Below, one piece after another: positions 43,903-58,325 of a stretch of 64,000 bases of DNA (positions are counted from its first letter, which is position 1; the number at the start of each line of letters is the position of its first letter). This DNA is from Tsuneonella suprasediminis (lineage in GTDB: Bacteria; Pseudomonadota; Alphaproteobacteria; Sphingomonadales; Sphingomonadaceae): contig NZ_RAHJ01000014.1 in the NCBI RefSeq assembly GCF_003605755.1, forward strand, positions 248,001 to 312,000, read 5' to 3'. Position numbers and translations under genes: made by a program. The notes under the pieces were generated by a model. That model worked only from the letters and a program-made list of their open reading frames with translations, did not search any database and was not told where the DNA came from.

Positions 43903-45993
43903 TCAGGGTCGCAGATCGTACCGCCAACCAACCTTGTCGGTCAGCAGCCTGCCATCCGGGGTGCGCGCGCGTGCCTCCACCAGATTGGCGCCATCTGCCA
44001 GTTCGACGGTCCATTTGGCCATGCGATCTTCCACATTCACGGAAGTCCATTCGCCACCGTTCAGGCGCACTTCGATCGCTGGCAGGTTGGAAAAAGCCAT
44101 CGCTTTAACCTGCCGGGTACGCTTCTGCGTGTCACGACTGCTGGCGATGTGCAGCATCGGTTTTTCGGCCCAGTTGGCCTGATACCAGTAATAGGCATCT
44201 TTGGGCGTGCGATCCTCTGTAATCAGACCCTTGTCGTTGATGGCAGGCCGATCCCCTTCGTTCCGCTTGAACGATGGAAAATCGATCGCGACCCAGACGA
44301 AGGTGGACCATAAGAACGGCCGCTTCTTCATCTCCAGCCAGTGCTTGATGTGGAAATCGGTCTGGTATTGTTCGGGATGCCAGTAACCATTCGATTCCGG
44401 GCGCTTCACAACCGGATCTTCCTGATGGCGGATCGAGCCGCCCGCACCGTACTCGCTCACACCGATCGGCCGGTTTGGCATCTTGGTATGGAGTTCGTCC
44501 GCCCAGGGGCCAATGTCTTCCGACTTGGTCCAGTACCAGCCGAAATACCGGTTGTAAGACACCGTATCGCTGTGCTGCGCGATGGGATCGTCATCGTCCA
44601 GACAGCAATGGGCATATGTAGTAGGGCGATATGGGTCCAGCGTATGCGCAGTCTTGTTCAGATCGGCCAGAAGACGGTTCGACGCGGCATCCGACACGCG
44701 GATTTCGTTCCCGATACCCCACAGCGCCACAGACGGATTGTTGGTGTGCTGCGCGATCAGTTCTTTCATTTGCTGGACGAGGTTTTCACGAAAGGCATCA
44801 GACTGGTCGTGATCGTCGATCAGTGGCACTTCGGTCAGAATCAGCATGCCCAGTTCGTCCGCCCGATCATACACGCGTGGGGGATGCTGCATATGCGCCA
44901 GACGGATACCGGTTGCGCCCATTTCATCGATCAGGCGCATATCCTCGTCGATCTCGCCATCGGTCACGATAGGCCCCCGGCCGAAACGCGTCGGCATCTG
45001 CATATTCACGCCATAAAGAGGATAGCGCTCGCCGTTGAGCAGAAAGGTGCCATCCGTTTTGACAGCAACCGTCCTGATGCCAAGCGGCACAGACTGGCTG
45101 TCGATAGCCGCATCCCCTTCGATGATCCGGCTGCGTATCCGGTAGAGATAAGGGTCTGCCCGGCCCCGCCATAGCTTCGGATTCGCTACGGTAAAGGAAG
45201 CGGGCATCGCGCGCTTCTCACCCGCGGCAAGCTGCACACCATCACGCTGAGTGGCCACCGCCACGCCAGCGGCATCGACGATCTGCGTTTCAAGCTCGAA
45301 CCGGGTCGGCTGGGAACGCGAATTCACCAGTTCCACGGTCGTGCCGATTCTTGCGGAGCCTTTACCGATCGACTCGGTCCACCCGCGGATCGCCGGGCCG
45401 GCATGGTTCATCCGGTCGAAATGCAGGTCGGGCACTTCAATCAGCCGAACCTCGCGATAGAGACCTCCGAACACATTGAAGTCACCGTTGAGAGGGGAAA
45501 TCTCAGGATTTTTGGAATTATCGACACGCACGGCAAGAATGTTCCGCCCTGCCTTCAGGTATTCCGTGACGTCAAAGCGGAATGCAGCATATCCTCCGCG
45601 GTGCATCCCGACCTTGCGCCCGTTCAGCCAGACATCGGCCTTTAACGTCGCCCCTCCAAAATGGAGGATCTGGCGTTTGCCAACTGTGGATGCATGATCG
45701 AACATCAGGCGATACCACGCAGGCCCGCGATAGTATTTTCCTTCGGGCTCCCCACGTGCCTTTGCCCCGCCAATCCCGGAATCCACGGCATTGTAGGTAT
45801 GCGGGACAGTAACGCTGGCCCAGCCGTCGTCATCATAAGTCTGGGCAGATGCGCCCGCAGGGTCGCCTTTGATGAATTGCCACCCGTCGTGAAGGGGCAC
45901 TCCTTCCGCGGCACTCACTGGCTGAGCAAGCGCGATGGTTGCGAGAATGGCCAGAGCAATCCTGCCAACGAGATTGGTAATCAGGTGCGTCAT
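43903..45993 (-). CDS. GH2 family glycosidase (beta-galactosidase / beta-glucuronidase group)
   Basis: A 696-residue secreted GH2 enzyme with a Sec signal (ALAILATIALAQPVSAAEG). Domain order is sugar-binding N-domain (about 30-185, TVPHTYNAVDSG, YYRGPAWYRLMF, GGATLKADVWLNGRKVGMHRGGYAAFRFDVT), immunoglobulin-like domain (to about 290), then TIM barrel: YGVNMQ, ATGIRLAHMQHP, ALWGIGNEIRVSD with acid/base Glu and PIGVSEYGAGGSI with the nucleophile Glu. A C-terminal domain with RQVKAMAFSNLPAIEVRLNG follows (DUF4982-like). Substrate is likely a beta-galactoside or beta-uronide of pectin. Its ATG overlaps the GH28-2 stop (ATGA), so the two are translationally coupled. Confidence 0.9.
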   Translation of the reverse strand: MTHLITNLVGRIALAILATIALAQPVSAAEGVPLHDGWQFIKGDPAGASAQTYDDDGWASVTVPHTYNAVDSGIGGAKARGEPEGKYYRGPAWYRLMFDHASTVGKRQILHFGGATLKADVWLNGRKVGMHRGGYAAFRFDVTEYLKAGRNILAVRVDNSKNPEISPLNGDFNVFGGLYREVRLIEVPDLHFDRMNHAGPAIRGWTESIGKGSARIGTTVELVNSRSQPTRFELETQIVDAAGVAVATQRDGVQLAAGEKRAMPASFTVANPKLWRGRADPYLYRIRSRIIEGDAAIDSQSVPLGIRTVAVKTDGTFLLNGERYPLYGVNMQMPTRFGRGPIVTDGEIDEDMRLIDEMGATGIRLAHMQHPPRVYDRADELGMLILTEVPLIDDHDQSDAFRENLVQQMKELIAQHTNNPSVALWGIGNEIRVSDAASNRLLADLNKTAHTLDPYRPTTYAHCCLDDDDPIAQHSDTVSYNRYFGWYWTKSEDIGPWADELHTKMPNRPIGVSEYGAGGSIRHQEDPVVKRPESNGYWHPEQYQTDFHIKHWLEMKKRPFLWSTFVWVAIDFPSFKRNEGDRPAINDKGLITEDRTPKDAYYWYQANWAEKPMLHIASSRDTQKRTRQVKAMAFSNLPAIEVRLNGGEWTSVNVEDRMAKWTVELADGANLVEARARTPDGRLLTDKVGWRYDLRP

Positions 45994-47621
45994 GTCGCAC
46001 TCTCCAGAACGGATACGTCACGGACGGCCACATTCCGGCAATCCTTGGCAATACGGACAGCACGCTTTGCGTCTTTGGTCGAAACAAGATCGTCGATCAC
46101 AGCGCCCTGCACGTTCTCGAACGCAATTGTCGGACGCGCATCCGCGCTCTCCACTTCAACCCGCATATCGGTGACACCCAGATTACGCACGTGTCGCGCA
46201 TAAAGGCCGTGAGCTGGCAAAATACCCATAAAGCTGGGCTCCAGACTCGAAGTGCGGCGCTCAGGCACCGCGCGCGCCGCATCGGCCGCACTGCCGCCAC
46301 CGGCAGCTGTAATATGCACCCCGCTCAGGCTCACATCTTCGATGATGCCATCCTCGATCCCGACCACGCCGCAGGGATATTCCATTCGCGCGCCCGACAC
46401 CTGAATATCGGAAAAGCGCACCCGCCTGACCCGCGCGACGCCTGCGCCACGTGGTGCGCGATTGCGCGCCGAGAGCCGCAGGAACAGCGGATGGTTCACA
46501 GGATTTCGCAAGCTGACATCGCGCACAGTCACGTCTTCCAGCACACCGCCATCGATCGCGCCCATTTGGATACCGCGCGAATTCTCGCACATGCAGTCGG
46601 CAATCAGAATGTTGCGGAAACCGGCAACCGAATCCGTACCCAGCTTGATGCGCCCCAGCACACCGACATTGTCCGGCGCCATGTAAGGCGATTTCTGATA
46701 GGTGCCATCGAGCACGGTGCCGAGCAGATAGCCGCTGGTTTTGCAGCCGATGATCTGAATATCTTCGCAGAACCGCGCCTCTTGCAGCGCATAACTGCTT
46801 TTCAGCACGATAGCGTCGTCTTTCGGGGCGTTGACGGTGCAATTCACCACTTTTGCATCGCGACAGCAATCGAGATCGATGCCGTCGCGATCGGTATCGA
46901 CAGTCAGCCCCTCGATCCGCACATTGGTGCAGCCAAGCACGTAACAGGCAAAATGCCCACCCTGCAGGATGCTGAAATCTTCGAGCACGACATTGCGGCA
47001 CCGCGTCAGCCCGATAGCCTTGTTACCACGCCCTTCGTACTTCATTTCCAGCGGGATAGCGCGGCGCGCTTCGTCGGCTGTCATTCCCAGCTCTGACGGA
47101 GACTTCCAGCCCTTGATCCCATGCCAGCGCGGCGGTGGTCCTTCGCGATCCAGCCCGCGACCAAAGATCATGCCGTACCCGACGATAGCGATATCGGTCA
47201 CTCCGTCGCCGTAGATCAGGCTGTTGTGAAAGTGAGCAAGGCCGTAATCGACCAGTTGTTCCTCGAACACGCCTTCGGGCAGATCGTATTGCCCTGCGTG
47301 TTTGTCGGGATCGGCGGCAACGATCACCGATCCCGGCATAAGCACCAGCGTGATGTGGCTCTTCAAACGGATGGAAAAGCACAGATACTCGCCCGGCGGC
47401 ACGACGATAGTACCGCCACCCTTGGCGCTGGCCGCTTCTATCGCGCGATTGATAGCGTTGGAATCGATCGCTTTCCCATCGCCAACCGCGCCATAGTCCC
47501 GGATATCGTGAAAGCCGGACAGGCTGCCAGCCGCCCGGATCGGGACCGAGCTCGCAGCAAATGCGGCCCCCAGCCCATAAAGCGCGGTACGACGGCTGAA
47601 TTCGGCAAATCCTTCAGGCAA
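45990..47621 (-). CDS. GH28 family pectin-degrading glycosidase (second paralogue)
   Basis: A 543-residue paralogue of the GH28 protein at 39351-40979. It has a twin-arginine signal (FSRRTALYGLGAAFAASSVPIRAA), TVDTDRDGIDLDCCRDA, NCTVNAPKDDAIVLKSSYAL and GRIKLGTD. As in the paralogue, the GHG motif is replaced (KTSGYLLGTVLDG). DNA identity to the paralogue is very high around the D-D motif. No ATG or GTG is in frame before the signal; the TTG at 47621 has GGGAG eight bases upstream and places the twin arginines at 10-11, so I use it. A GntR-type operator lies 27 bases upstream, giving GH28-2/GH2 its own promoter although the gene before it points the same way. Confidence 0.86.
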   Translation of the reverse strand: MPEGFAEFSRRTALYGLGAAFAASSVPIRAAGSLSGFHDIRDYGAVGDGKAIDSNAINRAIEAASAKGGGTIVVPPGEYLCFSIRLKSHITLVLMPGSVIVAADPDKHAGQYDLPEGVFEEQLVDYGLAHFHNSLIYGDGVTDIAIVGYGMIFGRGLDREGPPPRWHGIKGWKSPSELGMTADEARRAIPLEMKYEGRGNKAIGLTRCRNVVLEDFSILQGGHFACYVLGCTNVRIEGLTVDTDRDGIDLDCCRDAKVVNCTVNAPKDDAIVLKSSYALQEARFCEDIQIIGCKTSGYLLGTVLDGTYQKSPYMAPDNVGVLGRIKLGTDSVAGFRNILIADCMCENSRGIQMGAIDGGVLEDVTVRDVSLRNPVNHPLFLRLSARNRAPRGAGVARVRRVRFSDIQVSGARMEYPCGVVGIEDGIIEDVSLSGVHITAAGGGSAADAARAVPERRTSSLEPSFMGILPAHGLYARHVRNLGVTDMRVEVESADARPTIAFENVQGAVIDDLVSTKDAKRAVRIAKDCRNVAVRDVSVLESAT

Positions 47622-47692: not shown

Positions 47693-48499
47693 TCAGCCGA
47701 TGATACAGCGCCCCTTGTCCAGATAGACGACAAGATCGGCGTGCGATGGCATGGTTTTAAGGATCGAACGGGTAATCCGCTCGTAATGACTGATGAAGCG
47801 GGCGATTTCCGCATCGCTCATAATCAGCGCCGAATCGCGCCCTTCTTCCACCATGCGCCGGGCCAGCGTGCGTTCCTGCTCGACCCGCCACTGATGCACA
47901 ACTTCAAAGCCCGGCGCTGCCAGAAGGATCAGGCGGTCGATACGACGGAACAAAGCCTGATATTGCCCTGCGAGGAAATCGTTCACTGCCGTTCGCCAGT
48001 GACCTGCAGGATCTTCATCCGCTTCCAGTGCATTCACAGGGGTAGCCAAGTCGTCTCGCGCGACTTCTGTCGCGCCAACGCACCACCCTTCGAACAACAG
48101 CACGTCAACCCGGCCATCGACAACCGGCCACAGGTGACGGGGAACCGGTTCGTCGCTAGCCTTGTCGAACCGCGGCAAGGCAACCGTTTCGCCGGCCCGG
48201 ATGGCATCGATCACCGCCATGCCAAGCGCCACATCATGGGTTCCTGGAACACCGCGAGTGACGAAAAGCGGGTGGATATTGCGCGCCAGCTCCCGCCGCG
48301 CCTCCGTGCCAAGATAGAGATCGTCTAGCGAAAGCGTGGCGACCTTCAGTCCATCGCGCGCAAGGCGTTCCGCCAATTGGCCTGCGAGAGTCGACTTTCC
48401 GCTGCCCTGAGCGCCGCAGATGCCCACGACGATTGGCCGATCACCGTCCGACAGCCAACCCTCTATCGCCGGAGCGACGATATCAGGCAACGCGGTCAA
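47693..48499 (-). CDS. P-loop sugar-acid kinase, D-glycerate 3-kinase-like
   Basis: A protein of about 268 residues in the uridine-kinase / D-glycerate 3-kinase group of P-loop kinases. Walker A is GAQGSGKST (about 29-37), followed by LSLDDLYL (Walker B-like / substrate Asp), NIHPLFVTRGVPGTHD (the characteristic loop of glycerate 3-kinases), LPRFDKASDE and LLFEGWCVG. The C-terminus carries QWRVEQERTL. The gene overlaps the end of the 2-hydroxyacid dehydrogenase gene; no ATG is available. TTG 48499 has AGGA six bases upstream; TTGs at 48517 and 48490 are alternatives. With the dehydrogenase it would turn hydroxypyruvate or glyoxylate-derived glycerate into phosphoglycerate, entering central metabolism. 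Confidence 0.8.
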   Translation of the reverse strand: MTALPDIVAPAIEGWLSDGDRPIVVGICGAQGSGKSTLAGQLAERLARDGLKVATLSLDDLYLGTEARRELARNIHPLFVTRGVPGTHDVALGMAVIDAIRAGETVALPRFDKASDEPVPRHLWPVVDGRVDVLLFEGWCVGATEVARDDLATPVNALEADEDPAGHWRTAVNDFLAGQYQALFRRIDRLILLAAPGFEVVHQWRVEQERTLARRMVEEGRDSALIMSDAEIARFISHYERITRSILKTMPSHADLVVYLDKGRCIIG

Positions 48500-49439
48500 G
48501 CGGTTCCTGCCCGGCAAAAAAGCGGTCGAGATTGTCGGTAACCTTCATGCCCATCGCCTCGCGTGTTTCCAGTGTGGCCGAACCCAGATGGGGCAGCAGC
48601 ACCACATTGGGCAAATTCACCAGACCCGGATGCACTTTGGGCTCGCTTTCGAAAACGTCGAGGCCTGCCGCCGCAATCGTGCCGTCGCGCAACGCATCGG
48701 CCAACGCCGCTTCGTCAACCAAAGTGCCTCTGCCGGTATTCAGCAGAACCGCGTTCGGCTTCATGCATTTCAGCATTGCCGCATCGATCATGTGGAGGGT
48801 TTCCGCACCGCCCGGCGCATGCAGGGACACAACATCCGAAATGGCCAGAAGGTCGGCCAGCGACGCGTGATAGCTGCCTTCGGGCATGTCCGGCTTCGGA
48901 GTGCGACTATAATAGGCGATGGTCATGCCGAATGCCTTCGCGCGGTCGGCCACTGCCCGTGCGATCCGGCCGAACCCGACCAGCCCCAGAACTTTGCCCG
49001 ACAGCGAAGAGCCCAACAGATGCGTGGGCCGCCAGCCGGTCCACTCCCCGGCCCGCAATTCACGCTCCCCTTCGCCCGCACGACGTGTCGCCATGAGCAG
49101 CAGAGTCATCGCGATATCGGCGGTGGCATCGGTCAGCACGTCGGGCGTGTTGGTGACTATAATGCCAGCGCGCCGCGCCGCATCCAGATCGACATGTTCG
49201 ATACCGGCACCGAAGTTGCCGATAATCCGGGCACGCACACCGGCGCCTTCGATTGCGGAGGCCCCCAGTCGATCGGTCACTGTCGGGCACACGGCATCGT
49301 ATTCCCGCATGGCCGCGGCCAGTGCATCCGGCCCGAGCGGCACGTCATTTTCGTTCAATGTCACGTCATAGCTTTGCGCCAACCGCTGTTCGACCGATTC
49401 GGGCCAGCGTCGGGACAACAGGATCCGGGGCTTGTTCAT
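48483..49439 (-). CDS. D-2-hydroxyacid dehydrogenase (glyoxylate/hydroxypyruvate reductase type)
   Basis: A 318-residue D-isomer-specific 2-hydroxyacid dehydrogenase. The cofactor motif is GLVGFGRIARAVADRAKAFG (about 150), substrate and catalytic residues lie in LHAPGGAETLHMID, LNTGRGTLVDEAALADAL (Arg near 232), GLDVFESEPKVHP (Glu near 261) and LLPHLGSATLETREAM (His near 280). It fits GhrB / glyoxylate-hydroxypyruvate reductases. The ribosome site TAGGAGG contains the stop of the preceding crotonase gene, so translation is closely coupled. Its partner kinase gene overlaps its 3' end. Together they suggest that the operon delivers a C2-C3 ketoacid (glyoxylate, hydroxypyruvate or tartronate semialdehyde) as an end product. 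Confidence 0.88.
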   Translation of the reverse strand: MNKPRILLSRRWPESVEQRLAQSYDVTLNENDVPLGPDALAAAMREYDAVCPTVTDRLGASAIEGAGVRARIIGNFGAGIEHVDLDAARRAGIIVTNTPDVLTDATADIAMTLLLMATRRAGEGERELRAGEWTGWRPTHLLGSSLSGKVLGLVGFGRIARAVADRAKAFGMTIAYYSRTPKPDMPEGSYHASLADLLAISDVVSLHAPGGAETLHMIDAAMLKCMKPNAVLLNTGRGTLVDEAALADALRDGTIAAAGLDVFESEPKVHPGLVNLPNVVLLPHLGSATLETREAMGMKVTDNLDRFFAGQEPLDRVA

Positions 49440-49447
49440 GAATCCTC

Positions 49448-50218
49448 CTATCGCCGCCGAAACCGCGCGTCACGCCGTTCGGCAAAGGCCGCGCGACCTT
49501 CCGCCGCATCCTGAGTGGCGAAGCAGATCGCCTGCAGATCGCGCTCGTACTCAATTGCCTTGTCCCATGGCATAGTATGCGCGGCCCGCAAGTTCAGCTT
49601 GGCCGTTTCAGCTGCAATCGGCGCGCGGCTTGCAATGGTAGCGGCCACTTCCATCGCGCGCGGCATCAGCGCCGATGGCGTGTGCACCTCGCTTACGATA
49701 CCCCAGTTTCTGGCAAGCTCCGCATCGATCATATCGCCGGTCAGAACCATCATCGCCGCATTGGACGATCCCGCGCAATAGGACAGCCCGGCCGCCATGC
49801 CGCCGCCGCCGATCCAGCCAAGCTTGATTTCCGGCGCGGCAAAGCGGGCATTGTCGGATGCGATGCGGATATCGGCAGCCATGGCCGATTCCAGCCCCCC
49901 ACCCAGAGCGTAGCCATTGATCGCAGCGACCACCGGCTTGCGACAGGCGCGCAGCGCATCGCAGTAATCGTCACGATTGCGGAAATCCCACGGCGTCGCA
50001 TAGCTATCGAGCGTGGAAATATCCGAGCCAACAGAAAATGCCTTTTCGCCAGCGCCAGTAACGACGACACAGCGAACAGCGTCACTGTCATTGCATTCCG
50101 ACACAGCATCGATCAGCGCCGCCGCCATCTCCGGCGTCAGGGCATTCAGTTTTTCAGGCCGGTTGAAAGTGATCGTGGCCACATGGTCGCGCACGTCGAA
50201 AATCAGGGTATCGGTCAT
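49448..50218 (-). CDS. Enoyl-CoA hydratase / isomerase (crotonase) family protein
   Basis: A 256-residue crotonase-fold protein. The oxyanion-hole strands are EKAFSVGSDISTL (about 58-70) and NGYALGGGLESAMAADIRIA (about 97-116). The first catalytic Glu equivalent is in RFAAPEIKLGWIGGGG (about 128), but the position of the second Glu of classical hydratases is Met (NAAMMVLTGD). A simple enoyl-CoA hydratase reaction is therefore doubtful; isomerase, decarboxylase, hydrolase or retro-aldol/Claisen chemistry is as likely. It overlaps the upstream SBP-like gene by four bases (ATGA) and lies in the operon with a CoA-transferase that would make its CoA substrate. Confidence 0.84.
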   Translation of the reverse strand: MTDTLIFDVRDHVATITFNRPEKLNALTPEMAAALIDAVSECNDSDAVRCVVVTGAGEKAFSVGSDISTLDSYATPWDFRNRDDYCDALRACRKPVVAAINGYALGGGLESAMAADIRIASDNARFAAPEIKLGWIGGGGMAAGLSYCAGSSNAAMMVLTGDMIDAELARNWGIVSEVHTPSALMPRAMEVAATIASRAPIAAETAKLNLRAAHTMPWDKAIEYERDLQAICFATQDAAEGRAAFAERRDARFRRR

Positions 50219-51351
50219 GTTTCGGCTCCCGCCGGATGGTTCTGTTGATACAACTGCTCGATCGCGTCCAGCGTCGGTTCGGCATCGTCACCCGCCAGCA
50301 ATGCCTCTCGCAAAACGCGGGACGCAGCGGTCTGAAATGCGATCGCGCCATTGTGGCGTGGGCGCAGAGATGCCTGTTCCAGTGTCGGCAAAGTTGCAGC
50401 GAAGAAGTTGCCGTTCGCTGCATTCACGCCCGGATCGCGCCATGCCGAACGGAAAGCGGGCTGACCGTCATGGGCCGGCAGAAACCCGCGTTGCCCACTG
50501 TCGGACATCAGCCAGCGAATATGATTCAGCAACGCGGGAGTCACATGGCAACGGCGCGATATTCCAATCCCGGTTCCACCCAGAATCGATCCGATACGCC
50601 CGCTCGGACCGCAAGGTGCATTGCCGAATGTCACCCCACGCGTGGCATAATTCACGTAACCATAAATGAGCGGGCACAAGTCCGGCCCATCGCCCGCCGA
50701 CATCGCTTCCAACATAGTGATCGGGTTCATTCCCGCCGCGACGCGCGTGGGATTGCCAGTCAGTGCCGCCATGACAGCGAACGCCTCCCTGCCGATAGCG
50801 CGATCGACAAAGTTGTCGCGCGGGGCAGGCGCGTCGAACCCGAATGCCGCGCAGATCGACTGAAAGCTCAGCAAGGCATGCGGCCCCGCCAGCGACAGCG
50901 CAACCTTGCGCGTTTCAGCCAGGGAAACCAGCTGCGCCCAGGTCGTAGGAACATCGTCGACGCTTCCGTTGCGCCAGGCCATGACTTGCGTCGCGGCATC
51001 CAGCGGCAAGGCCCAATACTTCCCCGCATAGCGATAGCTGGCTAGTGAAGGCCCTGCGATCGCGTGCCGCCACGCAGCAAGCTCGCTTTCGTCGAAGAGT
51101 GTATCAACCGGAACAAGGCAATCGGATGCGACCGCCTCGCCCACATGCGGATGGTCGAGCACGACAAGATCGTATCTCTCGCACAATTCGACAATCGGAT
51201 GGGATTCGAACCCCTCCAATGGGTGACGGTCCCATTGCAGCGATAAACCCTCAGCGTCGTGCGCTGCCCGCGCCAGAGCATTGTAGCCACGCGGATGGTC
51301 CCAGGTCAGCCCGCGATAAGCAGGCGCGAGCGCATCGGTAGTGGATGTCAT
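50215..51351 (-). CDS. Orphan solute-binding-protein-like protein without signal peptide
   Basis: A 378-residue protein that reads like a type-2 periplasmic sugar-binding protein: GLTWDHPRGYNALARAAHDAEGLSLQWDRHPLEGF, YDLVVLDHPHVGEAVA, LVPVDTLFDE, YAGKYWALPLDAATQVMAWRN, LGGTGIGISRRC, and NFFAATLPTLEQASLRPRHNG. Yet the N-terminus (MTSTTDALAPAYRGL) has no Sec, Tat or lipoprotein signal, and no ABC permease or ATPase is nearby. The frame cannot be extended to give a signal because it overlaps the CoA-transferase gene at ATGA. It may serve as a cytoplasmic binding, chaperone or sensor protein for a pathway intermediate, or as a CoA-transferase partner. That function is unknown to me. Confidence 0.7.
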   Translation of the reverse strand: MTSTTDALAPAYRGLTWDHPRGYNALARAAHDAEGLSLQWDRHPLEGFESHPIVELCERYDLVVLDHPHVGEAVASDCLVPVDTLFDESELAAWRHAIAGPSLASYRYAGKYWALPLDAATQVMAWRNGSVDDVPTTWAQLVSLAETRKVALSLAGPHALLSFQSICAAFGFDAPAPRDNFVDRAIGREAFAVMAALTGNPTRVAAGMNPITMLEAMSAGDGPDLCPLIYGYVNYATRGVTFGNAPCGPSGRIGSILGGTGIGISRRCHVTPALLNHIRWLMSDSGQRGFLPAHDGQPAFRSAWRDPGVNAANGNFFAATLPTLEQASLRPRHNGAIAFQTAASRVLREALLAGDDAEPTLDAIEQLYQQNHPAGAET

Positions 51352-52538
51352 GCGTGCTGCCGCACCACACCGGATTCGATCAGCGCATCGATCGCGTCGT
51401 CGCTCATGCCCGCTTCCTTCATCACTTCCCGGCTGTGTTCACCAACCAGCGGCGCGCCACGTTCCACTGCACACGGTGTGCGCGAGAACCGGATCGGGAA
51501 GCCAGGCACTTTCAGATGCCCCTCTGTCGGGTGGTCGTATTCGATGAAGGTTCCGTTGTGCTTGATCTGGGGGTCGTTGATCAGATCCTCGTAGCCATAG
51601 ACAGGCCCCGCCCAGATATCGCGCGCGCGCATCTCGGCCAGCCATTCCGCGCTGCTTTTTTTCAGCAGATGCCCTTTCACCCTTGCGAAAATCTCGTCGC
51701 GCCTGATCCAGCCATCGGTTTCGTCGCTCAGCCCGGCAAAGAATTCGTCTTCAAACAACTGTTCCAGCTTGGCCAGCGATGCCATTGCCACAGTGATATA
51801 ACCGTCAGACGTCGCGAAAACGCCATATGGTGCACGGATATACGAATGGGCATGCGGCTCAGCCGATCGCGCCTGCGGTTTGCCGCCCACAGAGAACACC
51901 GACAGTTCCTGCATCTGGATCGTCGCAATCGCATCGAGCATGTTGACCTGCACCAATTGTCCTTCCCCCGTCCTTTCACGGTGGAACAGAGCGGCCAGCG
52001 CGCCCTCAAATGCAGAATAGGCGGCAATTGCGTCGACCAGATATTGCCCTGCCGCAGAGGGAGGCGCTCCCGCCGATCCGGTCGACATCATTGCGCCCGA
52101 CATGCCCTGCAGCAACAGATCCTGCCCGGGCAGATCTTTGTATGGTCCGTCTTCACCATAACCCGACATCGAAATATAGATCAGTCGCGGATTGATCGCG
52201 GAAAGCGTCTCGTAATCCACTCCCAACCGCTCCGCCACACCGGGGCGGTAGTTCTGCAGAAATACGTCGGCCTCGCGGACCATGTCGATCAGAATTGCCT
52301 TGCCTTCGGGGGCCTTCAGATCGACCGCCAGCGAACGCTTGTTCCGGTTCAGCGACAGGAACGAGACATTGATTTTGTTGCCCGTGGCCCCGCCTGCCGA
52401 TGCGTGGCGCTGCCATTCGCCGCTGGTCGGCTCCACCTTGATAACATCCGCCCCCATGTCACCCATGCGTTGCGCCGCGAACGGGCCCGCCATTGCGATG
52501 GAGCAATCGAGAACGCGTATTCCTTCGAGGATTTTCAT
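51348..52538 (-). CDS. CaiB/BaiF (family III) CoA-transferase
   Basis: A 396-residue family III CoA-transferase. Motifs are ILEGIRVLDCSIAMAGPFAAQRMGDMGADVIKVE (N-terminal CoA-binding region), LSLNRNKRSLAVDLKAPEGKAI, VFLQNYRPGVAERLGVDYE, ISMSGYGEDGPYKDLPGQDLLLQGMSG with the catalytic Asp in GQDLL (near 160), and GEGQLVQVNMLDA. It moves CoA between carboxylates without forming free thioesters. I start at ATG 52538 with GGAAAG upstream, rather than at a TTG five codons earlier. Donor and acceptor acids are unknown; neighbours suggest a sugar-derived acid as acceptor. Coupled to the SBP-like gene by ATGA. Confidence 0.9.
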   Translation of the reverse strand: MKILEGIRVLDCSIAMAGPFAAQRMGDMGADVIKVEPTSGEWQRHASAGGATGNKINVSFLSLNRNKRSLAVDLKAPEGKAILIDMVREADVFLQNYRPGVAERLGVDYETLSAINPRLIYISMSGYGEDGPYKDLPGQDLLLQGMSGAMMSTGSAGAPPSAAGQYLVDAIAAYSAFEGALAALFHRERTGEGQLVQVNMLDAIATIQMQELSVFSVGGKPQARSAEPHAHSYIRAPYGVFATSDGYITVAMASLAKLEQLFEDEFFAGLSDETDGWIRRDEIFARVKGHLLKKSSAEWLAEMRARDIWAGPVYGYEDLINDPQIKHNGTFIEYDHPTEGHLKVPGFPIRFSRTPCAVERGAPLVGEHSREVMKEAGMSDDAIDALIESGVVRQHA

Positions 52539-52557
52539 CTGTTTGCTTTCCAAACTA

Positions 52558-53304
52558 TCAATTCATGATCCATCCGCCATTCACGTGCAGCGTCTGACCG
52601 GTGATGAAGCCGGACTCGTCGCTGGTGAAGAATGCGATGGCATTGGCAATGTCGCCCGCGTGCCCACGGCGCTTGATCGCCTGGGCATCGAGTACCATGC
52701 GTTCATAACCTTCTGGATCGGGATGAATTTTCTCGGCATCGGTGGGAAAGGCGCCCGGTGCGATGGCATTGACCGTCACGCCCGCAGGCCCGAACTCGCG
52801 CGCCCATGCACGCGTCAGCCCGATCAGCGCCATCTTGGACGCCACATAAGGCGACAGGTTCTCCCAACCGCCCGACACCGTGATGCTGGAGATATTGATA
52901 ATCCTGCCAAAACCGCGCTCTTTCATGCCCGGAAGGCACACCTGCACAGCCAGTACGCCAGCATCGACATTGACACGCTGGACAGCCTGATACTCCTCCA
53001 GCGTGAATTCCTCGAACCGCTTGGCAGGATATATCCCGGCGTTGTTGATCACGATATCGAACCCGCCGACCTCTGCAAGAAGCCCCTCCAGCACGGTGCG
53101 ATATGCGACGAGATCGCCCATATCGGCATCGGATGTCAGCAGCCGCCCCGGCCCGCGATTTCGCGCCGCCTGCTTCAGCACCGCCAGCTTGGCGCGATTG
53201 CGATCAACGGCGACGACAGTCGCCCCACATTCGATCATCAGCAGAGTAGTTTCGAAGCCCAGCCCACCTGCCGCGCCGGTATAGAGAACAGTCCGACCTT
53301 TCAT
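52558..53304 (-). CDS. SDR family oxidoreductase
   Basis: A 248-residue classical SDR: TVLYTGAAGGLGFETTLLM (cofactor loop, about 5-23), VVAVDRNRAKL (Asp for NAD), DIVINNAGIYPAKRFEEFTLEEY (NNAG), IINISSITVSGG (Ser), SPYVASKMALIGLTRAW (Tyr-Lys) and the PGAFPT turn after NAIA. It differs clearly from the SDR at 41064. In its operon it would oxidise a hydroxyl of a sugar acid or its lactone before CoA activation, which is inference. The start overlaps the DUF4432 stop (ATGA). Confidence 0.87.
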   Translation of the reverse strand: MKGRTVLYTGAAGGLGFETTLLMIECGATVVAVDRNRAKLAVLKQAARNRGPGRLLTSDADMGDLVAYRTVLEGLLAEVGGFDIVINNAGIYPAKRFEEFTLEEYQAVQRVNVDAGVLAVQVCLPGMKERGFGRIINISSITVSGGWENLSPYVASKMALIGLTRAWAREFGPAGVTVNAIAPGAFPTDAEKIHPDPEGYERMVLDAQAIKRRGHAGDIANAIAFFTSDESGFITGQTLHVNGGWIMN

Positions 53305-54491
53305 GCCCCGGCCTCCGCTTCAATGGAGATGGGCGGATAGTGACCCGACGGCTTGGGATAGTCTTCGTTCGGTTGGCGACACACTGCTTCGATCCGGCGC
53401 ACCGCATCGTGAACGGCGCTATCATCGGGCAAAATGCGGAACACGCTGTCGTAACGGCGCTCCTCGCCATGCTCGAGCCAGATCAGCTCGCCACGCTCCC
53501 GCGCGAAGTCCTTCCCCAGCACGTGGTTGGTTGCAGGCTCTATCCCCATCGCATAATGGCCCGCATGAAGGTTTTGCCATTCGTACATCGAAGGGAACTG
53601 GCTTTTCAGGGTTTCCACTTCAAAGCCGAACCCCATCGCCTCGTTCACAATGGCCACGTTGACCCGCCCGCCAGTGTCAGGTGCCATATCGTGCTGCCAG
53701 ACCTGTTCGTGGAAATTGGGGATCGGCGCCGGTATGTGGCGGTAGCCGGTATTCTGACGCTGGTAATCGGCTTCATGCGCGGCCCAGATAACATCGCGCA
53801 CCGGCGCGATATAGCGCGAGCCTTCTGCCACGACCGGATGGCTGACATTGATGTGATAGCAATACATGTGCGGCGTGCGGTAAAAGCCGTGGTTGATCAC
53901 GCGGTCGTGCAGCCTGATCTCATTGCCACCGACATCGGCCTCGATCCGGCGGATCAAGTGAAGATCCTCTCCGAAAACGGTGGACTGCTGCACCACACCT
54001 TCGGCCCAAAGGACGCATTCGTCGCCCTGCCATTCCTCGCCATATCCAGTCAGTCGCGCGGGTATCGTCCCGACCCGGCCATGGAGAGAGGATGAAACCT
54101 TCTCTCGTGGGCCATAATGATAATGGTCGGCGGCGTCCTCATGCATAAACAACACGTGGTCGAGCCCGCACGTGATCAGCAACCCCGACATCGACCGGAA
54201 CCAACCAAGACCGCCTTCACCTTCGTACTCATGAAGCGCGGGATTGCGAAAACCCGATGGTGAATGCCAACCGACCGCGCGGCCATTATGCTCGCACTCG
54301 GCGATATCCATCGCCCGGTCGACCAGCACCGTAAACCGAAGGCCACTGCCGGTACGAAATTCGAGCTGGCGATTTCCCCGCTCGACCCCGTCGCCCAATG
54401 TCGAAAGGCGTACTCCCGCGAACTGCGAAAGCGAACCAGACCGACTGGCTAATTCGCGTCGACTGATGGTCTTGCCGAAAAGCTGTGGCAC
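53301..54491 (-). CDS. DUF4432 family protein, aldose 1-epimerase-like
   Basis: A 396-residue protein of the galactose-mutarotase fold. The N-terminus reads PQLFGKTISRRELASRSGSLSQFAGVRLSTLGDG, the usual beginning of DUF4432 proteins, then FTVLVDRAMDIAECEHNGRAVGWHSPSGF, LLITCGLDH, LHGRVGTIPA (binding His) and HMYCYHINVSHPV. Family members are thought to be sugar epimerases or mutarotases but are little studied. The start is GTG 54491 behind GGGAGAGG; the longer frame would run through the GntR-type operator at 54513. It is the first gene of the seven-gene CoA-transferase operon, which is divergent from the mutarotase gene. Confidence 0.85.
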   Translation of the reverse strand: MPQLFGKTISRRELASRSGSLSQFAGVRLSTLGDGVERGNRQLEFRTGSGLRFTVLVDRAMDIAECEHNGRAVGWHSPSGFRNPALHEYEGEGGLGWFRSMSGLLITCGLDHVLFMHEDAADHYHYGPREKVSSSLHGRVGTIPARLTGYGEEWQGDECVLWAEGVVQQSTVFGEDLHLIRRIEADVGGNEIRLHDRVINHGFYRTPHMYCYHINVSHPVVAEGSRYIAPVRDVIWAAHEADYQRQNTGYRHIPAPIPNFHEQVWQHDMAPDTGGRVNVAIVNEAMGFGFEVETLKSQFPSMYEWQNLHAGHYAMGIEPATNHVLGKDFARERGELIWLEHGEERRYDSVFRILPDDSAVHDAVRRIEAVCRQPNEDYPKPSGHYPPISIEAEAGA

Positions 54492-54512
54492 AATCCTCTC
54501 CCGCCCTTCATA

Positions 54513-54528
54513 CATAAGATGTATTATG
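54513..54528. promoter_or_regulatory. GntR-type operator, site 3 (CoA operon / mutarotase)
   Basis: CATAAGATGTATTATG (its complement is CATAATACATCTTATG, a full consensus match). It lies 22 bases before the DUF4432 GTG and 89 before the mutarotase ATG, so it can control both divergent units. The symmetric outer arms are CATAA / TTATG. Confidence 0.78.
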
Positions 54529-54616: not shown

Positions 54617-54973
54617 ATGGCCATCGAACGACGTTGCTTCGCAGTCGATCTTCACAACGATGCCGAAATGATTGCGGCCTATCGTCGCTGGCACGAACCC
54701 GGCGGCCCGCCCGCAGCGGTGACCAAAGCGATCCGCGCCGACGGGGTCATCTCGCTACAGATATGGCAGATTGCCGACCGTATGTTTATGATTATGGAGC
54801 AGGATAGCGAACGCGCACCCGATCCCGAAATAAAAAAACAACGCGACGCTGCAAATCCCGAAGTCGCAGAGTGGGACCGGATGATGGCCGCATTTCAAAA
54901 GCCGCTATCATCTTTTCCCGATCAGACCTGGGTGGAGATGGAGCATATTTATGACCTGCGCGATCAGCCCTGA
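54617..54973 (+). CDS. L-rhamnose mutarotase family protein
   Basis: A 118-residue protein of the RhaM-type family (ferredoxin-like dimer). Visible features are RRCFAVDLHNDAEMIAAYRRWHEPG with the conserved W-H-E, ISLQIWQIADRMFMIMEQD, and ALSSFPDQTWVEMEHIYDL-type C-terminus (DQTWVEMEHIYDL). RhaM proteins interconvert alpha- and beta-L-rhamnopyranose; relatives act on other 6-deoxy sugars such as fucose. Its neighbourhood with a GH78 alpha-L-rhamnosidase makes rhamnose the first guess. It overlaps the convergent GntR gene by ten bases at the 3' ends, so no terminator separates them. Confidence 0.88.
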   Translation: MAIERRCFAVDLHNDAEMIAAYRRWHEPGGPPAAVTKAIRADGVISLQIWQIADRMFMIMEQDSERAPDPEIKKQRDAANPEVAEWDRMMAAFQKPLSSFPDQTWVEMEHIYDLRDQP

Positions 54974-55710
54974 GCTTTGCGAACCGAATCGGTCCGCCGC
55001 TTTGTCCACGAGCCAGAGATGTGCTCCCGCATAGCTGCCCCAGCAGCATCGGGATCACGCGCCATGATAGCGTCGAACACTTTGCGATGGGCCGCTTGTG
55101 TCAGTTTGACATGTTCGACACTGAGCTTGCCTGAATAGGCATGAGTGCGGAGTGCTTCGGACTGGATTCCATCGATGATGGCCTTGCTCAACCGGTCACC
55201 CGACATACACATAATGATGTCGTGAAAACGCAGGTCTTCGTGAACATAGGCGGAGGGAATAGTGACGAGCTCCTCCAATTTTTCGATCTGGACTGCGAGT
55301 TCCTCACGCTGTTCATTGGTCCCTTCACGCGCCGCATTGGCGGCCATTTCCGATTCAAGCAGGACGCGCACCTGGGAGAGATTATCCAGATAACGCAAGC
55401 CATCCTCACCCTTGAACAGAGCGGACAGAATAACCGGATCGAGCATGTTCCAGGCCTGATTTTCACGAACGATCGTGCCGCGCCCTTGCTGCGTCACGAC
55501 TAAGCCTTTCTCTATCAGGGCGGTTGTCGCTTCGCGCACAACCGTCCGGCTTACCTCGTACATCTCGCAAAGCATATTCTCTGGCGGCAAGGCTGTGCCG
55601 ACCGGATAGGTTCCGGCGACGATCAGGTTCACCAGATCCTCCACCACCGCGGTGGATAGCCGTGGCCGACGCCTTGCTCGCGGAGGAGTTCCGACAGTTT
55701 CCTTGGTCAT
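54964..55710 (-). CDS. GntR/FadR-family regulator with FCD domain
   Basis: A 248-residue regulator. The GntR winged helix (about 18-85) reads VVEDLVNLIVAGTYPVGTALPPE, CEMYEVSRTVVREATTALIEKGLVVTQQGRGTIV. The helical FCD effector domain (about 100-235) has the metal ligand pattern in DLRFHDIIMCMSG and AHRKVFDAIMARDPDAA. Start is ATG 55710; the 37-codon upward extension of the frame has no homology. It faces the enolase-family gene across a 146-bp region that contains one of five matching 16-bp sites, so it is probably autoregulated and the repressor of the whole 36.7-61.1 kb regulon. The inducer is probably a sugar acid, as is usual for FCD proteins. Confidence 0.92.
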   Translation of the reverse strand: MTKETVGTPPRARRRPRLSTAVVEDLVNLIVAGTYPVGTALPPENMLCEMYEVSRTVVREATTALIEKGLVVTQQGRGTIVRENQAWNMLDPVILSALFKGEDGLRYLDNLSQVRVLLESEMAANAAREGTNEQREELAVQIEKLEELVTIPSAYVHEDLRFHDIIMCMSGDRLSKAIIDGIQSEALRTHAYSGKLSVEHVKLTQAAHRKVFDAIMARDPDAAGAAMREHISGSWTKRRTDSVRKAQG

Positions 55711-55783: not shown

Positions 55784-55812
55784 TTGTTGCAAAAGATAAT
55801 ACATACTATGTT
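55784..55812 (+). promoter_or_regulatory. Promoter with GntR-type operator, site 4 (gntR / sugar-acid dehydratase)
   Basis: The operator GATAATACATACTATG occupies 55795-55810 (13 of 16 consensus positions). A possible sigma-70 promoter reads TTGTTG (55784-55789), 17-base spacer, TATGTT (55807-55812) towards the dehydratase gene, so the operator overlaps the spacer and -10. Binding would block RNA polymerase. Confidence 0.6.
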
Positions 55813-55856
55813 TTCAAACAAAGGGGCTGTCAGGCCTGTTACGGGGTGCGAAAGGC

Positions 55857-57005
55857 ATGAAAGTTACCGGCTATCGTTCACTGGTCACCACTCACGATTG
55901 GGGGCGTCCGGTTGGCGATGTAAACGGAATCATTCAGGACGGGATTACGGAAGTTCCCGTTCTGCTGCTCGAAACGGACGGCGGACTGACAGGCGTTGGC
56001 CTTGGCCAGCATGCCGATGTCGCACGCGTTTTCCGCGCAGTGGAGGGCAAAGATCCACGGGCAGTAACTGCGATCTATGATGCGATGCTGTCGCAGGTCT
56101 TCAAGAGCGGTCACGCTGGCGCAACGTTCGGTGCCATTGCCGCAGTCGACATGGCTCTATGGGATCTCAAGGCCAAGATGGCGGACGAACCTCTCTGGCG
56201 AACTCTGGGGGCGTTAGACCGATTTATCACCGGTTATGCATCTGGTTTGTGCCACGGCCTTTCCGATGATGAGTTCGCCGCCCACTATCAAAGCTGGGGC
56301 GATCGCGGATTCTCATCGGCTAAGGTCAAGGGCGGCGCAAATCTGACGCGCGATATCGAGCGCCTTAAAACCGTTCGGGACATTATGTCGAAAAACAGCG
56401 CACGTCCGGGCCTTATGCTGGATGTAAACGAAGCCTGGAATGCCAAGCAGGCGATCCGCCATCTCCATGAAATCGAGATGCAGCTTGATCTCACGTGGAT
56501 CGAAGAACCGGTGCGGCGCTGGGACGCCGCCGGGCTTGCCAATGTTTCCAAGGCCTGCCGCGCAGCAGTAGCCTCAGGCGAAAATCTTACGGGGCTCGAC
56601 CAGTATGCCCCTCTGTTCGAAGCAGGCGCGCTCGATGTAGTTCAGACAGGCAGTGTCTGGGGCATCACTCACTTTCTGCGCGTGGCCCTTGCTGCTCATT
56701 CGCGCAATCTGCCCATTTCTCCTGTGGGCTACGATGCCAATCCCGTGGCCCATGCAGCGGCGGCGGTTCCCAACCTGATCGGCATCGAAGTGCAGGACTG
56801 GAAGTGGCCCGCCGGCCTGTCCGTCGATCAGTCTGTCGAGAGCGGCGGAATCAGACTCGGTGATCGTCCGGGTCTTGGTATCGAAGTGAACGAGGCCGAG
56901 TTGGAGCCTAAGGCGGGCGACGGATGGGCGGCGACCGAGGGGCCTCACTGCAGGCCGCCACAGGCAGGGCTCCAACTGGCACCCACAGGCCATATTCAGA
57001 AGTAA
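55857..57005 (+). CDS. Enolase-superfamily sugar-acid dehydratase (mandelate racemase subgroup)
   Basis: A 382-residue mandelate racemase / muconate lactonising enzyme family protein. The barrel shows the K-x-K motif (SAKVKGGANLTRD, about 155), metal ligands Asp in LMLDVNEAWN (about 185), Glu in TWIEEPVRRWD (about 211) and Glu in ASGENLTGLDQY (about 237), then DVVQTGSVWGITHFL. The His general base of the subgroup is not evident; the corresponding strand end reads ISPVGYDANP. It should abstract the alpha-proton of a sugar acid and eliminate water to a 2-keto-3-deoxy acid, but identity (fuconate, rhamnonate or another) is open. It starts at ATG 55857 and is followed by an MFS gene. Confidence 0.84.
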   Translation: MKVTGYRSLVTTHDWGRPVGDVNGIIQDGITEVPVLLLETDGGLTGVGLGQHADVARVFRAVEGKDPRAVTAIYDAMLSQVFKSGHAGATFGAIAAVDMALWDLKAKMADEPLWRTLGALDRFITGYASGLCHGLSDDEFAAHYQSWGDRGFSSAKVKGGANLTRDIERLKTVRDIMSKNSARPGLMLDVNEAWNAKQAIRHLHEIEMQLDLTWIEEPVRRWDAAGLANVSKACRAAVASGENLTGLDQYAPLFEAGALDVVQTGSVWGITHFLRVALAAHSRNLPISPVGYDANPVAHAAAAVPNLIGIEVQDWKWPAGLSVDQSVESGGIRLGDRPGLGIEVNEAELEPKAGDGWAATEGPHCRPPQAGLQLAPTGHIQK

Positions 57006-57040
57006 GCTGCACGCAAAATAAAATAAAACGGGAGAGACAA

Positions 57041-58300
57041 ATGGGAACCGCAAAGGCCCCGGCTGATAACTACCTGCTGGGCCCGCAGCGCATGAGGCTG
57101 CAGCTTTCTTTGATGGTGAACTTCTTCCTGCTGATGGCGCTCTACAGCGGTGTCCTTGGCGTGCTGTTGCCCAATCAGATCGCGGAACTGGATGAAGGGT
57201 CCAAGGCCAATAATCTGGCGTTACTGTTTGCAGTGACATCGATCTTCTCGACACTTGCCACCCCGATTGCCGGCGCACTGTCAGATCGCACGCGCAGCCG
57301 GTGGGGCAAACGTTCGCCGTGGATTGCCATCGGTTCGTTGTTCGGATCTCTCGCGCTTTTCGGCGTATCATGGATGACCAGTTTCTGGTCGCTGATGGTG
57401 CTCTGGGTGATGGCGGCCATCGCTTACAACTCAATGCAACCGGCAATGACGACACTGATAGCGGACCGCTTTGCACCCGAATCCCGTGGTTCGGTTTCCG
57501 GTCTGGTCGGGGCGGGCATGACTGGCGGATTGACAGCAGGCACAGTTGTTGCCGGTTATCTCGCCGGTGAACGCGTGCTGGCCTATGGGCTGTTCGCAGG
57601 CGCAGTTCTGGTGTCGTGCCTTGCGTTTGTGGCCATCAATCGCGAGCCAGCCAGTGACGCCATGCCCCGCCGCCCCATTGTGTGGGGAGAATTCTTCAGG
57701 GGCTTCTGGATTTCCCCCAAGAAGCATCCCGATTTTGCGTGGGCCTTTGCAAGCCGCTTCCTGATTTACATGGGATATCAGGCCGTGGCCGCCTATCTCC
57801 TGTACATCCTTCGCGATTACATCGGCCTTGCGGATGAGGCATCGAATATCGCCATCGCGAATCTCGCCATGGTTACGCTTGTCTGTCTCGTCACTTCGTC
57901 GCTTATCTCTGGCTGGCTGTCGGACAAGTTCCAGCGTCGCAAGCCATTCGTCATTCTCGGCAGCCTGATCATGGGGTGCGCGATGATCGCACCTCTCATC
58001 TCCCCCGATATGGGCGGCATGTGGACATATGCTGCGGTCATCGGCGTGGGCTACGGAATGTTCATGTCCATAGACATGGCGTTAATGACTCAGGTTCTGC
58101 CCGAAAGCGCCTTGGGCGACGAAGGCAAAGATCTGGGAATCCTGACCACCGCTGTGAATATTCCGCAAATTCTTAGCCCCATCATGGCCGCTATCTTGCT
58201 GAATTTATTTGCGAATGATTACAGTACGATTTTCTGGGCAGCGGTGATTTTCGTGTTCGCATCGGCGTTTTGCGTAATGCCGATCCGATCAGTCCGTTGA
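57041..58300 (+). CDS. MFS sugar symporter (GPH / sugar:cation type)
   Basis: A 419-residue transporter with 12 predicted helices. The loop 2-3 motif SDRTRSRWGKRSPWIAIG is characteristic of the sugar:cation and GPH-like symporters, and the second-half equivalent is SGWLSDKFQRRKPFVILG. A central loop reads WGEFFRGFWISPKKHPDFAW. It begins at ATG 57041 behind GGGAGAG, 36 bases after the dehydratase, so the two are co-transcribed. Probably imports the monosaccharide or uronide set free in the periplasm. Confidence 0.87.
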   Translation: MGTAKAPADNYLLGPQRMRLQLSLMVNFFLLMALYSGVLGVLLPNQIAELDEGSKANNLALLFAVTSIFSTLATPIAGALSDRTRSRWGKRSPWIAIGSLFGSLALFGVSWMTSFWSLMVLWVMAAIAYNSMQPAMTTLIADRFAPESRGSVSGLVGAGMTGGLTAGTVVAGYLAGERVLAYGLFAGAVLVSCLAFVAINREPASDAMPRRPIVWGEFFRGFWISPKKHPDFAWAFASRFLIYMGYQAVAAYLLYILRDYIGLADEASNIAIANLAMVTLVCLVTSSLISGWLSDKFQRRKPFVILGSLIMGCAMIAPLISPDMGGMWTYAAVIGVGYGMFMSIDMALMTQVLPESALGDEGKDLGILTTAVNIPQILSPIMAAILLNLFANDYSTIFWAAVIFVFASAFCVMPIRSVR

Positions 58301-58325
58301 AAAATCATTCATCATATGTATGATG
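58297..58325 (+). promoter_or_regulatory. Promoter with GntR-type operator, site 5 (pectin-locus TBDR)
   Basis: CATCATATGTATGATG (58310-58325) is a palindrome with seven-base arms and two-base centre. A possible promoter is TTGAAA (58297-58302), 16-base spacer, TATGAT (58319-58324), so the operator covers the -10. The TBDR ATG lies 70 bases downstream. Confidence 0.62.

Follow-up and report, generated by a model that had tools for sequence, protein, structure and literature searches.

A conserved gene set in a sphingomonad pectin locus that may break down a sugar acid through coenzyme A thioesters

We analyzed a seven-gene operon that lies in a pectin locus of Tsuneonella suprasediminis, within a 64-kb stretch (G000:C13:248001-312000, hereafter the window) of the 3.30-Mb genome. 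The proteins of the window were assigned to families by Pfam, NCBIfam, and Protein Data Bank (PDB) sequence searches, and these bore out the families, strand, and coordinates of the operon given in an earlier note made from the sequence alone (the original prediction). The seven genes all lie on the minus strand, running from position 54491 to 47693. The first (53301-54491) encodes an aldose-1-epimerase-like DUF4432 protein (PF14486, E 2.6e-95; PDB entry 3ty1, "hypothetical aldose 1-epimerase," E 6.8e-32), and the second (52558-53304) encodes a classical short-chain dehydrogenase/reductase (SDR; PF13561, E 1.1e-52) with a YxxxK motif in its translation and FabG-like proteins as its best PDB matches, which may act as a sugar or sugar-acid dehydrogenase. 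They are followed by a class III coenzyme A (CoA)-transferase of the CaiB/BaiF family (51348-52538; PF02515, E 8.4e-106, positions 1-366 of 366), a solute-binding-protein (SBP)-like protein predicted by AlphaFold2 and Foldseek to have a maltose-binding-protein (MBP) fold, here named SBPc (50215-51351; PF13416, E 8.1e-8), and a crotonase of the enoyl-CoA hydratase family (49448-50218; PF00378, E 4.1e-58; best PDB match, the enoyl-CoA hydratase 5xzd, E 4.5e-53). The last two genes encode a D-2-hydroxyacid dehydrogenase resembling glyoxylate/hydroxypyruvate reductases (48483-49439; PF02826, E 4.3e-58; 299.5 bits to the NCBIfam glyoxylate reductase model, cut-off 455) and a P-loop kinase (47693-48499) with the Walker A motif GAQGSGKST in its translation. 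The nearest solved structure to the kinase is a D-glycerate 3-kinase (GLYK; 7xpc, E 1.4e-19), with 6ckg also matched (E 9e-16), and this relation predicts that it phosphorylates D-glycerate.

The genes are tightly packed. ATGA overlaps had been claimed for four junctions, and three of them hold (DUF4432/SDR, CaiB/SBPc, and SBPc/crotonase); at the kinase boundary there is no ATGA, and the kinase gene instead starts with TTG at 48499, so that its first 17 nt lie within the reductase gene. The SDR and CaiB genes are 19 nt apart (CaiB ATG at 52538), and the crotonase and reductase genes are separated by 8 nt with a GGAGG site. Tsuneonella flava and other sphingomonads, among them other genera, keep the seven genes in this order, and the set is therefore not a chance arrangement.

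For gene neighborhoods, we used the best 80 of at least 570 SBPc relatives from GTDB genomes, selected by SBPc score; presence was counted with bit-score thresholds that we set, and contig ends shorten some of the loci. They are spread over sphingomonads, rhizobia, roseobacters, Azospirillum, Streptomyces, and Acidobacteria metagenome-assembled genomes (MAGs), and more distant counterparts occur in Bacteroidota. Close to home, SBPc is sparse: it was found in 5 of the 197 relatives searched (own genome counted), and in 385 genomes sampled evenly across the class, the more distant SBPc of locus L017 as query gave 6 full-length matches (again counting the own genome) and 24 that were only short and weak. 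A second genome of the same genus (G004) has the seven genes in order, the relative G066 has them with an inserted FAH-family gene, and the relative G039 has the five core genes.

Among the 80 loci, SBPc was present in 80, crotonase in 78, CaiB in 77, SDR in 64, DUF4432 in 60, FAH in 40, SP-isomerase in 30, Gfo/Idh/MocA in 29, GLYK in 19, the reductase in 18, RhaM in 18, ALDH2 in 8, and MaoC in 1. CaiB and SBPc are on the same strand and within 150 bp of each other in 75 of the 77 loci that have both, as are SBPc and crotonase in 75 of 78. Of 74 loci, 49 have a CaiB stop codon that would allow an NTGA overlap, and 25 do not. The widespread core is thus five genes (DUF4432, SDR, CaiB, SBPc, and crotonase). 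The neighborhood comparison that had been proposed recovered the set in order, but with a smaller conserved core, and the seven genes are not supported as the unit, since the reductase/kinase pair is missing from the covered stretch in 62 of 80 loci while CaiB, SBPc, and crotonase are nearly universal. The pair (18 loci) and the Gfo/Idh/MocA plus SP-isomerase combination (29 loci) never occur together (0/80; hypergeometric P = 8e-5), an exclusion that is probably taxonomic in part.

In three Azospirillum loci (L057, L066, and L069), a LacI gene faces a single run of SDR, CaiB, SBPc, crotonase, FAH, ALDH2, receptor, permease, permease, and ATPase genes, and within that run there is no other sugar-acid dehydratase (IlvD/EDD, enolase, or UxaA). 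We read it as an oxidative sugar route toward 2-oxoglutarate in which CaiB, SBPc, and crotonase would take the place of the sugar-acid dehydratase. In Shinella (L020), Microvirga (L103), and an Acetobacteraceae MAG (L104), one run holds SDR, an SMP-30/gluconolactonase-annotated gene, SBPc, CaiB, crotonase, and sugar ATP-binding cassette (ABC) transporter genes. The gluconolactonase-type gene sits just ahead of SBPc-CaiB in all three, and no NCBIfam lactonase model matched it. The Shinella run also encodes a 360-amino-acid protein without a Pfam match (L020:6002-7084), with homologs in the Microvirga and MAG loci.

Ten more distant loci (L017, L018, and L021-L028; SBPc 32-41% identical) carry MaoC in 8 cases, Gfo/Idh/MocA in 8, RhaM in 4, and RhaT in 2, with an annotated crotonase in one (L028). 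MaoC is not homologous to crotonase, and the two share a hydratase reaction; for the Rufibacter MaoC, the top-scoring model is PaaZ. In L026 and L027 (Rufibacter and Persicobacter plasmids), L017, and L018, a further SBP-like protein (SBPc2) accompanies a second CaiB, Gfo/Idh/MocA, and MaoC. We read this set as a sister module, possibly for L-rhamnose, RhaT being present in L026 and L027.

SBPc itself matched no NCBIfam family, and its Pfam SBP_bac_8 match is weak. An AlphaFold2 model built with 50 family members reached a predicted local distance difference test (pLDDT) of 93.9 and a predicted template modeling score (pTM) of 0.92, and the best 50 Foldseek rows were MalE3, MBP, and other sugar receptors at query-normalized template modeling (TM) scores of 0.69-0.79 (MalE3, 0.79) and 14-19% identity. 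The predicted fold is thus the two-lobed, MBP-like one of ABC-transporter solute-binding proteins. Neither a signal peptide nor a lipoprotein export signal is present in the window protein. The first conserved SBPc motif (TW) lies at most 15 codons from the CaiB stop in 68 of 72 loci, leaving no room for a signal peptide (of the 80 SBPc, 3 were omitted because of their motif or strand, and another 5 are not preceded by a CaiB gene), and N-terminal hydrophobicity was 0.15-1.07 in five SBPc versus 1.87-2.44 in four true receptors. True receptors are encoded as separate genes in other loci. In the Bacteroidota loci (Rufibacter and Persicobacter), two CaiB genes adjoin two SBP-like genes, and the viewed stretches, whose plasmid gene tables are incomplete, show no annotated ABC permease or ATPase. 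Across 50 sequences (39-93% identical to the window protein), 55 columns are invariant, and many of the invariant residues are polar (His19, Arg21, Asp66, His67, His69, Tyr106, Asp118, Gln122, His158, Gln297, Arg330, and Arg332). A defense-system search with SBPc gave no match. Given its predicted fold and N terminus, SBPc is probably a cytosolic partner of the CoA-transferase, and it may serve as the binding subunit or presenter of that enzyme.

Residue counts for the enzymes were restricted by 7 of 80 loci that yielded no CaiB and 16 of 80 that yielded no crotonase, owing either to the open reading frame (ORF) caller or to absence of the gene; those for SBPc drew on 69 loci plus the window. 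The catalytic Asp column of CaiB, which we take to correspond to Asp169 of formyl-CoA transferase, is Asp in 73 of 74 aligned rows, with one gap. A loop reading RSAEPHAHxYIRAPYG is mostly conserved over 73 rows; it bears His and Arg and is neither Gly-rich nor of the GNxH type. Passages of PMC3720670 tie Gly-rich or GNxH loops to oxalate-type CoA-transferases (the formyl-CoA and acetyl-CoA:oxalate CoA-transferase subgroups), and because the CaiB loop is unlike these, the enzyme would be expected to use another substrate. Its best NCBIfam models are succinate-glutarate, formyl-CoA, and mesaconate CoA-transferase, all under cut-off. In the crotonase, Glu110 and Glu130 are each kept in 64 of 65 rows, with one gap, and are presumably the equivalents of the hydratase glutamates Glu144 and Glu164. 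Since both glutamates are kept and MaoC replaces crotonase in 8 of the 10 distant loci, hydration or dehydration is favored over cleavage, which the original prediction had allowed for the crotonase.

We postulate that the operon is a sugar-acid catabolic module that works through CoA thioesters by dehydration, a specific proposal to which we give slightly less than even confidence; that a sugar acid is activated with CoA at all seems likely. DUF4432 would supply the correct anomer of a neutral or acidic sugar, and the SDR would oxidize the sugar to the lactone or acid. SBPc would capture the sugar acid in the cytosol while CaiB moves CoA onto its carboxylate, and the crotonase would then take off water at C2-C3 to give a 2-keto-3-deoxy acyl-CoA in its enol form. 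The product would hand its CoA to the next sugar acid, so that CoA is catalytic. The freed 2-keto-3-deoxy acid might be carried toward 2-oxoglutarate by a KdaD-like dehydratase of the FAH family followed by an aldehyde dehydrogenase, or alternatively a C3 unit might be turned into D-glycerate by the reductase and into phosphoglycerate by the kinase. We infer each of these reactions, and the partnership of CaiB with SBPc, from the sequences.

The exchange of crotonase for MaoC leads to a sharp stereochemical prediction, namely, that the C3 configuration decides between the two. In Fischer projection, the C3 hydroxyl points right in L-rhamnonate and L-fuconate and left in D-galactonate, galactarate, D-xylonate, and L-arabinonate. 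In passages of PMC9007349, crotonases lead to (3S)-hydroxyacyl-CoA and PaaZ-type hydratases to (3R)-hydroxyacyl-CoA. MaoC would thus be predicted to pair with rhamnose-type acids and crotonase with those of other pectin sugars. In its broadest form, this amounts to a widespread and undescribed way of dehydrating sugar acids, with CaiB, a cytosolic MBP-fold presenter, and a hydratase matched to C3 (crotonase for left, MaoC for right), which we regard as possible but doubtful.

Several observations weigh against the proposed dehydration module. The position of rat Gln162, named as catalytic together with Glu144 in passages of PMC9007349, is Ala in 60 of 65 crotonase rows, Leu in 3, Ser in 1, and a gap in 1. 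The exchange of MaoC and crotonase tracks phylogeny as well as chemistry. No lactonase is encoded among the operon genes, FAH and ALDH are not inside the window operon, and a simple Weimberg-type route leaves the reductase/kinase pair unexplained. With an enolase-superfamily dehydratase (55857-57005) next to the operon, a second dehydration system would seem superfluous unless there are two acids to process. The Azospirillum runs have a different SDR, which reaches only 61-63 bits against the window or Sinorhizobium SDR, and the 80 loci, being the best-scoring of a larger family, were picked by SBPc itself. Mean SBPc identity was lower than that of the true receptor RbsB (65.5% versus 72.1%, 12 loci having both), CaiB (55.4% versus 70.5%, 65 loci), and crotonase (55.6% versus 68.4%, 59 loci), and unusual conservation of SBPc was dropped as an argument.

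The strongest competitor, which is nevertheless unlikely, is beta-keto cleavage, in which the SDR would oxidize C3, CaiB would make the 3-keto acyl-CoA, and the crotonase-fold enzyme would carry out a retro-Claisen hydrolysis that yields a short acyl-CoA together with either glyceryl-CoA or glycerate, the latter being passed to the kinase. Retro-Claisen crotonases are not known to keep both hydratase glutamates, whereas the operon enzyme does, which speaks against this reading; its lack of the Gln162 equivalent of plain hydratases speaks for it. Both the SDR and GLYK are within the operon, and the logic is that of oxidative deoxyribonate catabolism, for which passages of PMC6365646 describe an important glycerate kinase, a proposed glyceryl-CoA, and a CoA-bound variant with a CoA-transferase in Klebsiella michiganensis. 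However, thiolase, beta-keto acid cleavage enzyme, and CoA synthetase are all missing from the seven operon genes, 61 of the 80 loci gave no GLYK match, and cleavage fits poorly with the replacement of crotonase by MaoC in the distant loci.

It is somewhat less probable still that the module has nothing to do with sugars and instead processes a non-sugar acid released in that niche (oxalate, lactate, an ester side chain, or an aromatic acid). The best, though sub-threshold, CaiB models agree with such an acid, as does a TRAP-receptor-like gene that precedes the module in Sinorhizobium meliloti 4H41 (L084), but the aldose-epimerase-like DUF4432 and the SDR recur in 60 and 64 of the 80 loci, sugar ABC transporter genes are common neighbors, and lactonase-like genes are present in some loci. 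A dehydration-rehydration cycle, in which CaiB and crotonase would invert or move a hydroxyl (epimerization via the enoyl-CoA) and feed the neighboring enolase-superfamily dehydratase, is improbable: the two hydratase glutamates and the acid-sugar dehydratase adjoining the operon speak for it, yet a 150-bit threshold places the enolase gene near the core in 7 of 80 loci (a looser cluster gives 13), and the three Azospirillum runs have FAH and ALDH directly next and no other sugar-acid dehydratase. That SBPc is an ordinary ABC sugar receptor merely travelling with the operon is very improbable, for all its full predicted MBP fold, weak SBP_bac_8 match, and conservation no higher than that of RbsB, given the short, weakly hydrophobic N terminus, the receptors encoded separately elsewhere, and the Bacteroidota stretches without annotated transporter partners.

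As to which sugar acid the proposed module would handle, an oxidative L-rhamnose gene set begins just past the window (C13:312409-319459, 0.4-7.5 kb beyond its end), as revealed by NCBIfam. It comprises L-rhamnose 1-dehydrogenase (465 bits, cut-off 400), L-rhamnonate dehydratase (747, cut-off 393), 2,4-didehydro-3-deoxy-L-rhamnonate hydrolase (471, just under the cut-off of 500), a fuconolactonase-like protein (91, cut-off 400), and L-lactate dehydrogenase LldD (622, cut-off 550). Since this set is so close, the operon probably serves another sugar, and L-rhamnose is unlikely as its substrate. Of the pathway first suggested for the operon, sugar oxidation, CoA activation, and crotonase action fit the gene company in many genomes, whereas cleavage and the link to rhamnose or fucose do not.

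In the own genome, UxaC, GD_AH_C, and KduI were not found, and the DHDPS and HpcH/HpaI families have a single member each, so these standard galacturonate routes look absent, in a search that did not cover uronate dehydrogenase. This is not decisive because the core-bearing relatives G004, G066, and G039 have UxaC and GD_AH_C. Candidate substrates would be the C3-left acids of other pectin sugars, that is, those derived from D-galacturonate, D-galactose, L-arabinose, or D-xylose.

The operon is flanked by genes consistent with a pectin locus. Upstream are a RhaM-family (L-rhamnose mutarotase) gene (54617-54973, plus strand; PF05336, E 1.9e-18), a GntR/FCD-family gene that we take as the locus regulator (54964-55710, minus strand, ATG at 55710; PF00392 and PF07729), and the enolase-superfamily acid-sugar dehydratase gene (55857-57005, plus strand; PF13378). 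The dehydratase, which adjoins the operon in several sphingomonads, is galactarate/talarate-dehydratase-like, although that nearest model is matched far under cut-off (NF047820, E 5.2e-46, 157 bits, cut-off 500). Beyond it lie an MFS transporter-like gene (56924-58300, plus strand; homologous cluster c14, whose member L036:18549-19880 scored MFS_1), a TonB-dependent receptor gene (58330-61143, plus strand; cluster c18, whose member L041:16801-19524 scored as TonB receptor), and an alpha-L-rhamnosidase gene (61290-63923, minus strand; PF17389, E 5.4e-112). Directly downstream of the operon is a GH28/rhamnogalacturonase-like gene (45990-47621, minus strand; PF12708 and PF00295), followed by a GH2 glycosidase gene (43903-45993, minus strand; PF02836), and the left side also includes beta-helix proteins, an aldo/keto reductase, and an apiosidase-like-domain protein.

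A palindrome, ATAATACATNNNATGTAT, has 7 matches in the window (both strands, four places) versus 0.21 expected in shuffles. The sites are ahead of the operon (54507-54527, an exact match), between the GntR/FCD regulator and enolase genes (55796-55816; counterparts in L015, L029, L030, L039, and L040), ahead of the TonB-dependent receptor (58304-58324; counterparts in L029, L031, L039, and L040), and ahead of a GH28-like gene at 39351-40979 (40978-40995). The shorter core ATACATNNNATGTAT at 2 mismatches adds one match, at 22625, outside the locus. Counterparts of ATAATACATNNNATGTAT with at most 2 mismatches occur in L015, L029-L032, L036, L039, and L040 but not in L047. In the whole genome, at most 1 mismatch gives three matches (operon, regulator, and C13:321543), and at most 3 mismatches give 16 versus 6 for a reversed control pattern; hence, only low-mismatch sites are trusted. 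These sites support the shared locus regulation that the original prediction had assumed, and the operon is probably co-regulated with the pectin genes through the operator-like site.

The C13:321543 site (1 mismatch) starts a run of two transketolase halves, an FGGY kinase, MFS, FAH, and aldehyde dehydrogenase. The nearest solved structure to the FAH proteins of the loci is 9kkt, an unnamed FAH protein, followed by 2-keto-3-deoxy-D-arabinonate dehydratase (E 7.5e-16), and ALDH2 falls under every NCBIfam cut-off. The own genome encodes an FAH of this kind (52-56% identical) together with an ALDH (51 and 59%) at C13:326-329 kb, in the run opened by that site, and thus in the same predicted regulon as the operon. 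The wider region beyond the window (C13:319-329 kb; L112:11473-16911 and L113:1271-4053) encodes an AP-endonuclease-2-type isomerase, a split transketolase, and the FGGY kinase, then FAH and aldehyde dehydrogenase. Apiose was considered as a substrate of the operon on account of this set and the apiosidase-like domain in the window, but going by family roles, we take the first three as a D-apiose catabolism style of set that could handle apiose without the operon; the FGGY kinase scores best as glycerol kinase, under cut-off, and the AP-endonuclease-2 protein showed no detectable relation to the one in rhizobial loci (E 0.075). An apiosidase-like PF13204 gene nearby (L112:8172-9419, E 2.9e-100) is a stronger match than the domain in the window at 36726-38321, where DUF5060, apiosidase-like, and DUF5605 domains are joined in one protein of the sphingomonad pectin locus. 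Collectively, this suggests a superlocus for rhamnogalacturonan II or apiogalacturonan.

The left half of the window also holds a GH97 gene (23082-25217) and a gene for an outer-membrane beta-barrel OMP_b-brl_4 protein (31001-34513), which are probably parts of a distinct polysaccharide locus whose regulator is of the LacI type (26619-27620). A 686-amino-acid ORF without a Pfam match (11640-13700) is located between a DcaP-type porin and a sensor kinase, with an ORF of near-equal length on the opposite strand, so that either strand may be the coding one.

Sugar-acid breakdown has mostly been described as CoA-free, and the conserved CoA-transferase, SBPc, and crotonase would, if our reading is true, add a chemical strategy to it, as well as a further solution to dehydration beside the IlvD/EDD, enolase, and UxaA dehydratases. 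It would also assign a function to proteins named transporter receptors in the records that we viewed; to our knowledge, a periplasmic-binding-protein fold would here serve as partner of a CoA-transferase for the first time. In line with the original prediction, an open-access literature search, whose coverage excludes most subscription papers, found no published pathway with this gene set.

Among known systems, the oxidative L-rhamnose pathway LRA1-6 uses no CoA and proceeds through RhmD and a hydrolase; genes of this type are in the same superlocus past the window end, separate from the operon. The Weimberg-type oxidative pentose pathway combines an SDR-type dehydrogenase, a KdaD/XylX-like FAH protein, and an aldehyde dehydrogenase, all three of which accompany the core in some loci, but the Azospirillum runs put CaiB, SBPc, and crotonase where its IlvD/EDD, enolase, or UxaA dehydratase belongs. 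In the carnitine CaiB/CaiD cycle, a class III CoA-transferase and a crotonase dehydrate a hydroxy acid and CoA is recycled from the product; its substrate is a betaine, it works without an SBP-like partner, and the operon CaiB reaches 148 bits against the carnitine model (cut-off 413). The oxalate FCOCT/OXC cycle, in the passages of PMC3720670 that deal with it, likewise has a class III CoA-transferase pass CoA from product to the next acid, but its second enzyme is a thiamin-dependent decarboxylase, and the operon CaiB has neither its glycine-rich nor its GNxH loop. The nearest published counterpart is CoA-bound deoxyribonate catabolism (Price et al. 2019, PMC6365646), whose genetic evidence, in the passages concerned, runs counter to the premise that CoA thioesters are foreign to sugar-acid breakdown. 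Those passages describe a CoA synthetase or beta-keto acid cleavage enzyme, along with a thiolase, and in them no CaiB/SBP-like pair and no crotonase are seen; what that route shares with the operon is CoA-bound breakdown of a sugar acid with an SDR, a CoA-transferase (in K. michiganensis), and a glycerate kinase.

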